Source: Methanolobus zinderi (GTDB lineage: Archaea > Halobacteriota > Methanosarcinia > Methanosarcinales > Methanosarcinaceae). From it: a stretch of 64,000 bases of DNA. Both the position numbers and the translations under genes were made by a program. Positions within the stretch are counted from its first letter, which is position 1. Each line of letters opens with the position of its first letter. Positions 6,776 to 53,158 of the stretch are shown here, piece by piece. The notes under the pieces are model-generated. The model made no database searches. It had not been told where the DNA came from and saw nothing but the letters and a program-made list of their open reading frames with translations. The stretch spans positions 62,001 through 126,000 of the forward strand of contig NZ_CP058215.1 of assembly GCF_013388255.1 (NCBI RefSeq), given 5' to 3'.

Positions 6776-8320
6776 ATGTCACAGGTTAAAAAGCCTCTTT
6801 TGTTAATGATACTTGACGGATGGGGCTATACAGAGGAAAAAACCGGTAATGCGATCCAGGCTGCAAAAACACCTGTATTGGACAGCCTTGTAGAGAAATA
6901 TCCTTCCTGCCTGCTGAATGCTGCAGGGAATGCCGTGGGACTTCCCGAAGGACAGATGGGAAATTCAGAGGTAGGTCACCTGAATATCGGTGCCGGAAGG
7001 ATAGTTTATCAGGATTACACCAGGATTAACAAGGCAATAGAAGATGGCTCTTTTTTTGAAAATCCTGTTCTTCTCAGGGCTATTGAGAATGTAAAGAAGA
7101 ACGCTTCCTCGCTTCATATAATGGGCCTGTTCTCCTATGGTGGAGTACACAGCCACATGAGCCACATGAGAGCTCTTGTGGAAATGGGAAAAAGAGAAGG
7201 ACTTGACAACGTCTACATCCACACATTCCTTGACGGCAGGGACGTGCCACCAAGAGCAGCACTCAAAGATATGCAGGAGCAGGAAAAGCTCATGAAAGAT
7301 ACCGGCTACGGACAGGTGGCAACTGTATCGGGCCGATACTATGCAATGGATCGTGATAAGAGATGGCAGAGGACGGAGCTAGCATACGATGCTCTCACAC
7401 TTGGAGAAGGACTTGTTGCAGGAAACCCGGTTAAAGCCATAGAACTTGCCTATGACAGGGGTGAGAACGATGAGTTCGTCAAACCCACGGTGATAGTTGA
7501 CGAAGAAGGCAATCCTGTTGCAACTGTGAAGGACGGAGATTCGGTAATTTTCTTTAACTTCCGGCCGGACAGGGCACGCCAGCTCACATATGCTTTTGTG
7601 GAGAAGGATTTTGAAGGATTTGAAAGAAAAGCAGAACCGGATGTGTTCTATGTATGCATGACCGAGTACGATGAGAAACTGGATGTCCCGGTGGCATTCC
7701 CTGCTGAGACAATAAAAAATACACTGGGCGAGGTCCTGAGCAAAGCTGGCAGAAAACAGCTCCGTATCGCTGAAACCGAGAAGTACGCCCATGTTACTTT
7801 CTTTTTCAATGGCGGAGAGGAGAAACAGAACCCCGGAGAAGAAAGATGTCTCATACCATCCCCAAAGGTCTCCACATACGACCTGAAACCTGAAATGAGT
7901 GCCTATGAGGTCACGGACGAGCTTGTAAAGCGTATCAGATCAGGCAAATATGATGCAATTATCCTCAATTTTGCGAACATGGATATGGTCGGACACTCGG
8001 GTTTCTTTGATGCCACGGTCAAAGCTGTAGAAGCGGTGGATGAGTGTGTAGGAAAGATTATCGATGCTCTGATAAATGCAGGCGGAGCGGCGTTTATCAC
8101 AGCGGATCACGGTAATGCCGAGAAGATACTGGATTATGACACAGGAGGAGCACATACCGCACACACCTGCAACCCTGTAAAATGTGTTCTTGTAAATCCG
8201 GATAAGGGCATATCTCTGAAAAACGGAAAGCTTGCCGATATAGCACCCTCAATGCTTGAGATGCTTGGCATAGAAAAGCCTGAGGATATGACAGGCGATT
8301 CACTGCTTGTCAAAAATTAG
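6776..8320 (+). CDS. gpmI: 2,3-bisphosphoglycerate-independent phosphoglycerate mutase
   Basis: This enzyme interconverts 3- and 2-phosphoglycerate in glycolysis/gluconeogenesis. At 514 residues it matches the bacterial-type, Mn-dependent iPGM, not the shorter archaeal ApgM. Key features are [10 protein letters not shown] with the first metal aspartate, the phosphorylated serine in [42 protein letters not shown], the [10 protein letters not shown] arginines and the C-terminal metal site [10 protein letters not shown] and AHTCNPV. The last bases overlap the stop of fen1 by 4 bp in convergent orientation. Confidence 0.95.
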
Positions 8321-9333
8321 AACCATTTGTCAAGGGTACTCTGGCCGCCCCCGGAAGATGCTTCCAGGCGTTCCAGTGCCTTTGTAACCCTGGCATTTGA
8401 AAAGTCATGTTCCGTGCAGAGCAGATCGATAACAGTTTCAATTTTTGGTTTGCTCCATTTCAGCTCATAATCATCTGATACCGGAGGGTCCGTGAAGAAT
8501 CCCTTAATCGATTCCAGTTTGTCGATCTCAGCTTTCTTTGCATCCAGAATATTCTCAATACTGCCATGCTCTTTTACCAGCTTGAGTGCCGTTTTAGGGC
8601 CGACCTTCTCGAGTCCGCTGTTGTAGTCGGTTCCGACACAGAGAGCAAGATCGATAAGCTGTTCATGACTTATCCCAAGTTCTGTCAGGGATTCCTCAAG
8701 ATCGATTATCTCAGGTTTCACATCCACATAGATGTTCTTTCCGGGCAGTTTCCTCCTCCCGGAGACGGTCAGGTTCCTGACCACAGACGGAGCACCAAAA
8801 AGCAGAGAATCATAGTCCTGTGAACCTATAAGATCAGCATCTCCTTTTCTGACCATATAAGCTGCCTGTGCCTCACCTTCCGAGGGTGCATCCACAAAGG
8901 GGATTCCCATTGCATCAAGCAGTTTCTTAGAATCCTCAACTATTGTGGCATCCACCTTTGAGGAAGCCTGTGCATACTTGTACGCTTCTTCGGCCAGTCC
9001 CTTTTCACGCGCTTCGGTGGCTTTTATCTTTGCACTCTCACGGATTTGGGAGCGCTTTTCAATGGTCCCGGACTTCAGTTCGGGGGGCTTGCCATCAAAA
9101 ACAAAAACAGGTTTTACTCCTGCTTCCACTAGATTTGTCATCCGGTACAGTATTCCCGACAGATGGGATGTGATATTCCCGCTGGAATCCTTAAGAGGAG
9201 TGCCATCCCTCTGGCGTATTATGCTCAGGAACTGGTACAGGGTATTGTATGCATCGATGGCGACCACTCTGGCAGTCAGATCTGGCAGTTCCACCGGCCT
9301 TTTCTTCAAGAGGTCCCCTATATCAGTACCCAT
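8317..9333 (-). CDS. fen: Flap endonuclease 1
   Basis: FEN-1 cuts 5' flaps during Okazaki fragment maturation and repair. The 338-residue protein has the usual archaeal length. Visible parts are the N-region ([25 protein letters not shown]), the acidic active site of the I-region ([24 protein letters not shown]), the helix-hairpin-helix region ([19 protein letters not shown]) and a C-terminal PCNA-binding box, QSTLDKWF. The stop overlaps that of gpmI on the opposite strand. Confidence 0.97.
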
Positions 9334-49896: not shown

Positions 49897-50054
49897 CTTC
49901 TTAAATTATCTAAAACGGCTTCTGATGCCGAGAAATCGCATTTAGTTTTACCGAAAAATTGCTAGCCGGCGCCATTATCATCCTCAAATAATATAGATTG
50001 TTCGTACAGATGCGAACCGGAAGGTATTAATAAGAAACAACTAGTCTAGTATTG

Positions 50055-50327
50055 ATGACCCGTATAACCACCACCCGAGAGGATATGCCATTGAGTACCT
50101 CCATGGATATCTTCCATATGAAAAACAGACGAGACCCCGTGGACGAAGAAGTACTGCCATTCCTTGCCATTCATGGCAACCACGCGACCATCAACGAGGA
50201 ATCAGTGCTGTACGACGATGAGGAAGTTGCTCACGTGTACACAAAAAACGTCTTCGGAAGTATTCCGAAGGTCACTGTTGTTCAGGAGAACGTGGTTGAA
50301 GCAGACGTCGGTACTATTTACCACTGA
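50055..50327 (+). CDS. Hypothetical small protein
   Basis: The 90-residue protein is not recognised. It has no cysteine or membrane segment. A TATA-like TATTAATAAG near 50027 puts transcription start close to 50050, so the gene may be nearly leaderless from the ATG at 50055; a GAGAGG just before an ATG at 50085 makes that an alternative start. The acidic C-terminus (ATINEESVLYDDEEVAHVYT) is distinctive. It converges with the CDIN1-like gene with a 10-bp overlap. Confidence 0.5.
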   Translation: MTRITTTREDMPLSTSMDIFHMKNRRDPVDEEVLPFLAIHGNHATINEESVLYDDEEVAHVYTKNVFGSIPKVTVVQENVVEADVGTIYH

Positions 50328-51097
50328 GTTTCGTAGTTCAGCAATTCGTCGATTATGCTCCAGTCCTTTCCGAAGAACCGGTAATCTTTGATCAGGTGCC
50401 CGTTCAGTGTGATCGTGTCAAGGAAGCCGTACCAGTATACAACCATACCGGTACCGTAGCTTTCTTCATAATCGGTGAATTGTTTTTTTACATAATACTG
50501 GTGTTCTTTTTCGTCGCCGAATAAAGCTTTACTTTCTATCCAGGATATTTTTTTACCTTCTATTTCCACATCTTCATCAAGGAAGAAATCAGGTGTTTTT
50601 GCCATTCCTATTTCCCTGAGGTCCTCCTCTGTACTGAAAGTGATTCCCTGGTCCACAAGCCATGCTTCAAGTATACTCTCTCCGAGCTGACCCTTTATGG
50701 CATGCATCTCATGGGCCCTGGGCGAGAAAAAGAAATCGGAATCAATTGCTTCCTGCACCTCTTTTTTAAGGCGTGTATCGGGAGTATCATCAAGGTTCTT
50801 TACAAAGGATTTCTTTGGGATGCCCATTTCTTTCAGGATCATGGAAACCATAAGGGTCGCTGGAATATGGTTCCTTTTTGCGATCTGGACTATCGACCTT
50901 CCTTTTTTCCAGTGCTGCAGATGGGCCTTGCTTTTGTTTTTCACCCTTGAGAAGTTCTTCTTGACCTCTTCAATTGTTTTCTGGTTAAGTATAGAATATA
51001 TTACACCAACAGGCTGGCAGAAATGCTCTGCTACCCTGACAACATCCTCCACTCCGTCAAGAGCGCCGTATATCTGTTCGTAGGTATCAATGTCCAT
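50318..51097 (-). CDS. CDIN1 (C15orf41)-like PD-(D/E)XK nuclease
   Basis: The 259-residue protein resembles human CDIN1 and its archaeal relatives (TPD domain): a helical N-terminus with a helix-turn-helix (HWKKGRSIVQIAKRNHIPAT, LMVSMILKEMGIPKKSFVKN), then a restriction-type core. Likely catalytic residues are the Glu in GQLGESILEAWLVDQGI, Asp in MAKTPDFFLDED and the E-x-K in ISWIESKALFGDEKEHQYYV; a conserved VVYWYGFLD ends the core. The gene overlaps the endonuclease III-like gene by 11 bp, so they are coupled. The start at 51097 has AAGGTG at a proper distance; ATG 51103 is also possible. Confidence 0.8.
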   Translation of the reverse strand: MDIDTYEQIYGALDGVEDVVRVAEHFCQPVGVIYSILNQKTIEEVKKNFSRVKNKSKAHLQHWKKGRSIVQIAKRNHIPATLMVSMILKEMGIPKKSFVKNLDDTPDTRLKKEVQEAIDSDFFFSPRAHEMHAIKGQLGESILEAWLVDQGITFSTEEDLREIGMAKTPDFFLDEDVEIEGKKISWIESKALFGDEKEHQYYVKKQFTDYEESYGTGMVVYWYGFLDTITLNGHLIKDYRFFGKDWSIIDELLNYETQW

Positions 51098-51734
51098 ATC
51101 CATGCACCTTATCTGTGGATATTCCTTTCAGCAAACAATCTTCACACCTTTTCTTCCCGCAGAAGGCTTTTGAATATTCAACGATCAGAGCATGGTATTC
51201 CTTATACATTTCAACATCTTCCGGAAGACATGACTCAAAAAGCCGTTGCAGTTGAATGTAGTTTCCTTCCCTGCCCAGGCATTTCATGATGCGGGTGGTG
51301 TATGCATCAATTACGAATTTCGGCCTGCCGGCAGCATAGAGGATTATACAGTCAGCGGTCTCGTTACCTACGCCTCTGATGGACAACAGGATTTCCCTGA
51401 GTTCATCAACCGGGATGGAGAAAAGCTCCTCCATATCGTTTTTCATGAAAAAGCGGGCGATATTCTTCAACCTTGAGGCTTTCTGTCTGAAAAAACCACA
51501 GCACTTTACAATTTCTTCCAGGCGGGATATATCAGCGTCCGCAAGAGAGCAGGGTTCAAGCCATCCCTCCTCCTTCAGGCCACCTATGGCCTTTTCAACA
51601 TTGGACCATTTTGTCTGCTGGGTCAGTATGGCACCCACCACAACTTCAAAAGCCGTATCAGCAGGCCACCAGTATTGTGGACCCAGCTCGTCCAGAAGAA
51701 TACGGTAGATTTCAATTAACTGATTGTTTTTCAT
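51087..51734 (-). CDS. Endonuclease III-family DNA glycosylase (MagIII-like)
   Basis: The 215-residue protein has the HhH-GPD fold: VVVGAILTQQTKWSNVEKAI, helix-hairpin-helix ILLSIRGVGNETADCIILYA and the catalytic Asp in KFVIDAYTTRI. The usual four-cysteine iron-sulfur loop is incomplete (AFCGKKRCEDCLLKGI has three cysteines), as in 3-methyladenine glycosylase MagIII-type members. It should excise damaged bases; specificity is unknown. Start at ATG 51734; TTG at 51740 is also in frame. It overlaps the CDIN1-like gene. Confidence 0.85.
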   Translation of the reverse strand: MKNNQLIEIYRILLDELGPQYWWPADTAFEVVVGAILTQQTKWSNVEKAIGGLKEEGWLEPCSLADADISRLEEIVKCCGFFRQKASRLKNIARFFMKNDMEELFSIPVDELREILLSIRGVGNETADCIILYAAGRPKFVIDAYTTRIMKCLGREGNYIQLQRLFESCLPEDVEMYKEYHALIVEYSKAFCGKKRCEDCLLKGISTDKVHGYGH

Positions 51735-51758: not shown

Positions 51759-52271
51759 TTATTTCCAGAATTCCTCCTCATAGTTTTCAGGAAGATCAAG
51801 ATTCATAACATCATCTATTGATTTCTTCTTTTTACGCTCTGGCTGACTTTCATCCCTGCTTTCACCGGATTCGATGAGGGTCGTATTCTTGTCGCTTGAG
51901 ACTACCTTTTCATTGAAAGGATCATTCTCAGGTTCCTCATAAGCAGGAGTCTTTGCTTCCTGAAGAGGAGTTTTTTCCGGAGTTTCAGGTTTTTCCGGCC
52001 CTGCATCAGGAATTCTTGTTTCCCGGCGCGGCTGAGATGGTTCTGCCGGAGCTTCTTCCACAGGACAATCTCTTCTGATCTCACGTTTGATCCGCGTCCT
52101 CTCTGCATAGGTATCCACGACAGGTGCGGATCTTGACATCTGTTTATGTGTGGAACCATATCCTATGATACACTGTTCATCCCCTGAACGCCAGTCTATA
52201 ACATAAAGATGACAATCAGCCTTCTTGCATTGCGATACCCCGTCACGGGGGCAGACTTCAGGTAGCGTCAT
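51759..52271 (-). CDS. Hypothetical protein with N-terminal cysteines and acidic tail
   Basis: The 170-residue protein starts with a compact, cysteine-containing segment (VCPRDGVSQCKKADCHLYVI, GDEQCIIGYG), followed by a long Pro/Glu-rich disordered region and a short conserved-looking end (MNLDLPENYEEEFWK). I do not recognise it. The cysteines may bind zinc. It precedes the glycosylase gene by 24 bases and could be in the same repair operon. The ATG at 52271 has GAGG upstream; a TTG at 52286 is an alternative start. Confidence 0.6.
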   Translation of the reverse strand: MTLPEVCPRDGVSQCKKADCHLYVIDWRSGDEQCIIGYGSTHKQMSRSAPVVDTYAERTRIKREIRRDCPVEEAPAEPSQPRRETRIPDAGPEKPETPEKTPLQEAKTPAYEEPENDPFNEKVVSSDKNTTLIESGESRDESQPERKKKKSIDDVMNLDLPENYEEEFWK

Positions 52272-52309: not shown

Positions 52310-53158
52310 TTACAGTCCTTTGATAGCATTTGCGATCAGAGGTGCAACACTTACAGAACTCTGTATCCTTTCTATGGTATCGGTGGAGATTATTTCCTTA
52401 ACTCCTGAATTATAGAGCCTCATGACTGCGTTGCGTGCCAGTACCGGGTGCACACATGCCAGGTATACATCCTTTGCACCCTGGCTTTTGAGCAGTTTTA
52501 TCGACTCGACCATTGTCCCGCCGGTTGCTATCATATCATCAAGAAGGACTATATCCCTGCCTTTGACATCCACATTCTTTGTTTTGATGGTAACAGTGTC
52601 TCCCGAAAGGCGGGTCTTTTCAAGGTAATCATAATCAAAACCAATTTCCGTTGCGGTCCTTTCCACAAAGTCAAGGGCTCCAAGGTCCGGGGAAACAAGC
52701 AGAGGGTTCTGCAGATCCAGTGATCTTAAGTGATGGCCTATAAGGTATGCCGCATCCAGGTCAAATGCGTCGGCATTGAAATAATCCAGAATGCTGGCCT
52801 CATGTACATTTACGGTAAAGACCCTGTCAGCGTTTATCGTCCTTGCGATCGCCCTGGCACTTATAGGTTCGCCGGTTTTGAATTTTTTATCCTGTCTTGC
52901 ATAGCCCATGTAAGGGATGACAACGTTGATTACAGGTGAATCCTCACATGCATCGATCAACTGCAACAGTGCCACAAAGTCCGAGTCTGTCATTGTGCTC
53001 TGTATAATGGTCACTTCATCGACGTCTTCGTCAAGTATTCGTGTATAGAGCTCACCGTCAGGGAACCTGGAAAAATCAGTTATCGTCGGTTCCAGATTAA
53101 GCTCCCTTGCAACCTGTGATGAAAGGGCCTGAGATGCTGGTCCTCCTATGATCTTCAA
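52310..53158 (-). CDS. prs: Ribose-phosphate diphosphokinase
   Basis: PRPP synthase makes 5-phosphoribosyl diphosphate for nucleotide, histidine and cofactor synthesis. The 282-residue length is that of archaeal forms. Motifs are FSRFPDGELYTRI, VVIPYMGYARQDKKFKTGEP with the flexible loop, the VNVHEASILDYFN catalytic-loop His, and the PRPP-binding VLLDDMIATGGTMVESI. It fits with hisE and hisF in the same window but is not linked to them. Confidence 0.96.
   Translation of the reverse strand: MKIIGGPASQALSSQVARELNLEPTITDFSRFPDGELYTRILDEDVDEVTIIQSTMTDSDFVALLQLIDACEDSPVINVVIPYMGYARQDKKFKTGEPISARAIARTINADRVFTVNVHEASILDYFNADAFDLDAAYLIGHHLRSLDLQNPLLVSPDLGALDFVERTATEIGFDYDYLEKTRLSGDTVTIKTKNVDVKGRDIVLLDDMIATGGTMVESIKLLKSQGAKDVYLACVHPVLARNAVMRLYNSGVKEIISTDTIERIQSSVSVAPLIANAIKGL

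Follow-up and report, generated by a model that had tools for sequence, protein, structure and literature searches.

The 64,000-nucleotide window of Methanolobus zinderi DNA analysed here carries a gene for a CDIN1-type nuclease (hereafter CDIN1) that overlaps the gene of a DNA glycosylase (hereafter GLY), and the question raised by this locus is whether the coupling tells us what the CDIN1 family does. CDIN1 is an essential human protein and lies behind congenital dyserythropoietic anaemia type I; to our knowledge, no CDIN1 has been reported to act as a nuclease, and no substrate of the human protein has come to light so far. The human protein has been broadly tested with no nuclease activity published (PMC7261414, PMC13370696), and human CDIN1-Codanin-1 preparations showed no cutting of DNA or RNA substrates (PMC7261414). 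Archaeal orthologues have already been published (PMC7092493, PMC6519365), with a BLAST E-value of 1e-34 between human and archaeal CDIN1 (PMC7092493). In the literature that we searched, mostly without subscription journals, no description of a GLY-CDIN1 operon or of its partner pattern was found.

The genes at the center of the locus are packed in an operon-like manner:

52310..53158, minus strand: ribose-phosphate pyrophosphokinase (PRS), heading the tight run PRS-P3-GLY-CDIN1
51759..52271, minus strand: P3, in which a Cys4 finger and an acidic end are conserved, from alignments
51087..51734, minus strand: GLY, HhH-GPD glycosylase of the MagIII/MpgII branch, 215 aa, from Pfam PF00730, NCBIfam and PDB matches
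50318..51097, minus strand: CDIN1/TPD-family PD-(D/E)XK protein, 259 aa, from Pfam PF14811 TPD, an AlphaFold2 model and a 62-row alignment
51087..51097, minus strand: GLY/CDIN1 reading-frame overlap of 11 bp (17 bp if the upstream CDIN1 start is used)

The CDIN1 gene comprises 259 codons, from an ATG at 51097, the start favoured by its homologues, to a stop ending at 50318; an alternative 261-codon start lies at 51103. The gaps in the run are 23, 18, and -17 bp (-11 bp with the ATG at 51097), and we infer that the four genes are co-transcribed. The 11-bp overlap that the first-pass annotation had reported (GLY at 51734-51087 against the CDIN1 ATG at 51097) was recovered, as was the third gene with cysteines preceding both, namely P3 with its four conserved Cys. 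Other Methanolobus genomes have the orthologues in identical order; the host genome is 2.70 Mb in size, and its CDIN1 is 98% identical to the counterpart in Methanolobus sp. UBA118. On the plus strand, a small conserved gene (50052-50327), retained in several Methanosarcinaceae genera, converges on CDIN1 and ends 10 bp inside its 3' end.

The assignment of the 259-residue protein to the CDIN1 type, first made by eye from its motifs, is upheld by an HMM check, in which it matches Pfam PF14811 TPD with an E-value of 2.6e-48 and 163.8 bits (cut-off 27), and by matches to viral CDIN1/TPD structures. Its parts are:

50381..50779, minus strand: TPD nuclease domain, from the Pfam match
50798..51097, minus strand: residues 1-100, an N-terminal all-helical, helix-turn-helix-like region, from helices in the AlphaFold2 model
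50678..50680, minus strand: Glu140, the fold's first acidic residue, in the helix preceding the TPD strand, invariant in 62/62
50588..50590, minus strand: Asp170 in the TPD motif, a predicted metal ligand, invariant in 62/62
50528..50536, minus strand: Glu188-Ser-Lys190, the ExK motif, with K190 in 62/62 and E188 as 61 E and 1 D
50480..50482, minus strand: Gln206, conserved, C-terminal to the ExK motif, invariant in 62/62

Among 62 archaeal homologues with identity down to 26%, the invariant positions are E140, K167-T-P-D170, S189, K190, and Q206, and little or no variation is seen in the motifs KTPD(F), WIESK, and VVYWYGF. The TPD Asp, IESK, and VVYWYGF singled out at first pass are therefore all present and conserved, but about 35 residues separate VVYWYGF from the C-terminus, so that it is not at the end as claimed. 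Since the catalytic set E140, D170, E188, K190, and Q206 is conserved, the Methanolobus protein is predicted to be an active PD-(D/E)XK nuclease.

The AlphaFold2 model of CDIN1 (pLDDT 93.2, pTM 0.88) matched viral proteins in a Foldseek search of BFVD (E-values 1e-14 to 9e-10, probability 1.0), with TMq values of 0.47 for a mimivirus “CDAN1-interacting nuclease 1”, 0.64 for a megavirus TPD protein, and 0.78 for an unnamed viral protein. In the PDB, solved PD-(D/E)XK nucleases, NucS and I-Ssp6803I among them, matched weakly, with no E-value at or below 0.001 among the best 50 of 122 fold matches, and neither sequence nor profile searches returned a solved CDIN1 relative, human chains included. 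TPD relatives were likewise absent from the phage, plasmid, and viral-contig collections searched. The N-terminal half resembles the Cbp1 helix-turn-helix below threshold (NCBIfam E 0.052; PDB 2lvs E 1.2), which we treat as a lead only. The Methanolobus protein shares the TPD domain, the PD-(D/E)XK motifs, and the helix-turn-helix-like helical N-terminal half with the CDIN1/C15orf41 family, including its archaeal and giant-virus members, and differs in the glycosylase gene alongside; we know of no Codanin-1 in archaea. The archaeal Holliday-junction resolvase Hjc also has the PD-(D/E)XK fold, and a likeness of CDIN1 to Hjc has been stated (PMC7261414), but, compared by fold, Hjc is absent among the best 50 of 122 PDB matches.

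GLY matches HhH-GPD (PF00730) with an E-value of 7.9e-16 and 58.8 bits (cut-off 26.2), and its best PDB match is Helicobacter pylori MagIII (1pu6, 4.4e-24), in agreement with the MagIII type originally proposed. The best NCBIfam match is PRK13913 (1e-34), and because its 120.3 bits fall under the cut-off of 192, GLY appears to be MagIII-like and not MagIII proper. Its diagnostic positions are:

51306..51308, minus strand: Asp143, the catalytic Asp, invariant in the GLY alignment
51360..51362, minus strand: Glu125, at the position of the endonuclease III lyase Lys, invariant in the GLY alignment
51135..51161, minus strand: C-terminal Cys192-x4-Cys197-x2-Cys200, with no fourth Cys, from the GLY alignment

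The catalytic Asp143, the Glu replacing the lyase Lys, and a WWP motif are common to GLY and the MagIII / MpgII / Mja-UDG branch (PRK13913), the Glu being the same in all three (PMC11754123), whereas GLY retains three C-terminal Cys. Endonuclease III (nth) was considered and rejected for GLY, which scores 59.7 bits against a cut-off of 211.7 for TIGR01083, has Glu for the lyase Lys, and has three Cys instead of the full 4Fe-4S Cys4 loop. GLY is predicted to be a monofunctional glycosylase acting on alkylated or deaminated bases.

P3, the usual upstream companion in Methanosarcinaceae, has an N-terminal Cys4 finger (CP..C..C..C), a low-complexity middle of variable length, and an acidic-aromatic C-terminus, DLPDNYEEEFW (conserved as DLPxxYEEEFW); it matches no Pfam or NCBIfam family and looks like an adaptor. 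It is found in 112/170 genomes of the order, in families f1 and f2, the same two as CDIN1. We rejected P3 as an explanation of the CDIN1 family despite this shared distribution, as f1 and f2 may simply be sisters.

The first-pass annotation read the coupling as a sign of a base-excision or stalled-fork repair role for the family. Under coupled DNA repair, the monofunctional GLY would excise a base damaged by alkylation or deamination, and CDIN1 would cut the DNA at the resulting abasic site, close to it, or at a stalled fork, CDIN1 being a repair nuclease throughout. Because GLY is predicted to be monofunctional, it would need an AP nuclease, which speaks for this proposal. On the other side, the host genome has genes for one ExoIII-type and three EndoIV-type proteins; no AP endonuclease is therefore missing, and we rejected CDIN1 as a substitute for one.

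The extent of the pairing bears on the proposal more directly. TPD proteins (CDIN1) occur in 118/170 genomes of the order, and a GLY-like match in 164/170, families without CDIN1 included. CDIN1 occurs together with a GLY at 50% identity or more in 74 genomes, and the two genes are adjacent in 64 of these, which span nine genera, all of family f1 (Methanosarcinaceae); in the remaining 10, which belong to family f2 (which we take to be ANME-2), they lie apart without exception (0/10 adjacent). On the CDIN1 tree, GLY adjacency takes two changes to explain, a gain and a loss. The GLY-CDIN1 linkage thus arose once, within one Methanosarcinaceae clade, and the linkage beyond one clade by which we judged a base-excision-repair operon was not found. 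The adjacency expected across archaea is real in that clade, where it includes one fusion, but confined to it.

Within the clade, the pair outlasts changes on both flanks (P3 or YhbY upstream; P5-LysS, FeoB, or Rad50-Mre11 downstream), and its retention over nine genera favours coupled repair. So does a natural in-frame GLY-CDIN1 fusion in one genome (G456, L102:7935-9344, minus strand), a single open frame because an 8-bp deletion takes out the stop; its close relatives still have two genes. A model of the fusion (pLDDT 93) has a pTM of 0.72, to be read against our own estimates of about 0.57 without domain-domain confidence and about 0.73 at 8 Å error, which suggests that the two domains may touch. 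The pair can also come apart: in one genome (G220, L137:5093-5701) PRS, P3, GLY, and LysS are all there and CDIN1 is gone, a clean single-gene loss. In Methanosarcina, a GLY profile search found no GLY remnant between P3 and CDIN1.

Two further loci deserve mention. In G446 (L065:4309-5447), a transposase-like zinc-ribbon fragment occupies the expected place of GLY, and the genome (76% complete) has no GLY. In G200 (L028, minus strand), GLY (~8722-9312) and CDIN1 (~8001-8396) are each interrupted by a single in-frame TAG but otherwise intact; the family of this genome decodes TAG as pyrrolysine, so that either readthrough or early decay is possible.

Taken together, the GLY coupling, though a real pairing with one natural fusion, does not on its own tell us the function of the CDIN1 family, because it arose in a single clade, GLY is near-universal in the order and does without CDIN1 in entire families as well as in G220, ANME-2 keeps the two genes apart, and CDIN1 was lost alone in G220. 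With the mostly translation-type neighbours of CDIN1 elsewhere also against it, we regard coupled repair as partly supported but, as a general account, rather unlikely.

Outside the paired clade, the partners of CDIN1 shift from lineage to lineage and are mostly translation and tRNA/rRNA-modification genes. In family f2, aRF1 precedes CDIN1 in 13/13 CDIN1-bearing genomes, directly in 12, on the same strand and close. The direct order aRF1 then CDIN1 is seen in four f2 genera (e.g., L020:4736-6777). In 14/29 loci, presumably all from Archaeoglobaceae, a protein with an NMD3 C-terminal domain is encoded upstream, on the same strand and close; it is small and stand-alone, with Pfam NMD3 matches of 5e-9 and 1e-9 (L085:7418-7690 and L093:8693-8962, the latter on the minus strand). 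Other Archaeoglobaceae loci have, likewise nearby on the same strand, TgtA-ArcS (L082, L087) or DHH-Pcc1 (seven loci, the Pcc1 match being barely at cut-off) upstream, and in L083 and L101 Nth lies two genes upstream, before the NMD3-like gene. In L021, CDIN1 is last in the closely spaced same-strand run L21e-Rpb4-DUF655-KsgA-methyltransferase, and in Methanosarcina and the g140/g144 genera it converges with rad50-mre11 (L042:2798-8732). The CDIN1 tree shows ten changes of upstream neighbour class. Translation or tRNA/rRNA genes make up 5 of about 8 separate contexts (p of about 1e-4 to 1e-3 at a guessed 8 to 12% translation-related background and with independence assumed); as the classes were drawn post hoc and the contexts may not be fully independent, we treat this pattern as a lead.

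CNOT1 is an RNA-decay scaffold. Codanin-1, the human partner of CDIN1, binds via its MA3 domain and is CNOT1-like, and an RNA role has been proposed (PMC7092493, PMC11911400), with which the translation-type neighbours independently agree. We tentatively favour, at somewhat less than an even chance, a general archaeal role of CDIN1 on RNA or translation, with the glycosylase operon local to one clade. CDIN1 would most likely be a metal-dependent PD-(D/E)XK phosphodiesterase with E140, D170, E188, and K190 as its active site; the N-terminal helical domain may bring it to nucleic acid, and its targets may be structured RNA or translation complexes, not abasic DNA. The glycosylase operon would then be specific to this clade, where it lets two nucleic-acid enzymes be expressed together and perhaps links them physically. 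Several points count against this. Translation operons commonly offer a stable place for genes to land, and human CDIN1-Codanin-1 cut no RNA (nor DNA) substrates (PMC7261414). The DHH protein before Pcc1 may be a DNA enzyme of the RecJ kind, which would favour DNA repair, as do the convergence with rad50-mre11 in Methanosarcina and the Nth gene two genes upstream in L083 and L101, the latter counting directly for coupled repair. The RNA/translation role is nevertheless at least as likely as the repair role and fits more of the data; we infer both, the possible repair role from one clade's gene order. A more specific version, that CDIN1 is a translation/RNA-surveillance nuclease working with aRF1, NMD3-like proteins, and tRNA/rRNA modifiers, which one clade also wired, even fused, to a glycosylase, is unlikely.

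Alternatively, there may be no coupling at all, with CDIN1 working by itself as a structure-specific nuclease (resembling Holliday-junction resolvases or of another kind) and its gene hitch-hiking in any operon where it happens to land. The ten changes of neighbour class, the patchy distribution of a gene that can be lost alone, and the weak Foldseek matches to NucS and I-Ssp6803I fit this. Yet the partners are stable per lineage (aRF1 in 13/13 CDIN1-bearing f2 genomes, GLY in 64/64 paired genomes), their frames overlap or nearly touch, and the neighbour classes look non-random, which makes hitch-hiking distinctly unlikely. That CDIN1 is a non-catalytic nucleic-acid-binding protein, as the inactivity of the human protein on many substrates might suggest (PMC7261414), is most improbable, because every catalytic position is conserved over deeply split archaea and binding alone would hardly keep them.

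If true, the RNA-surveillance version of the favoured RNA/translation role would account for the CNOT1-like scaffold of the human partner. The CDIN1 proteins of Methanosarcina and Methanolobus are short, Codanin-free, and have an intact active site, so that the substrate could be sought in archaea, and the shifting gene partners, i.e., the glycosylase, aRF1, the NMD3-domain protein, and P3, are candidate interactors.
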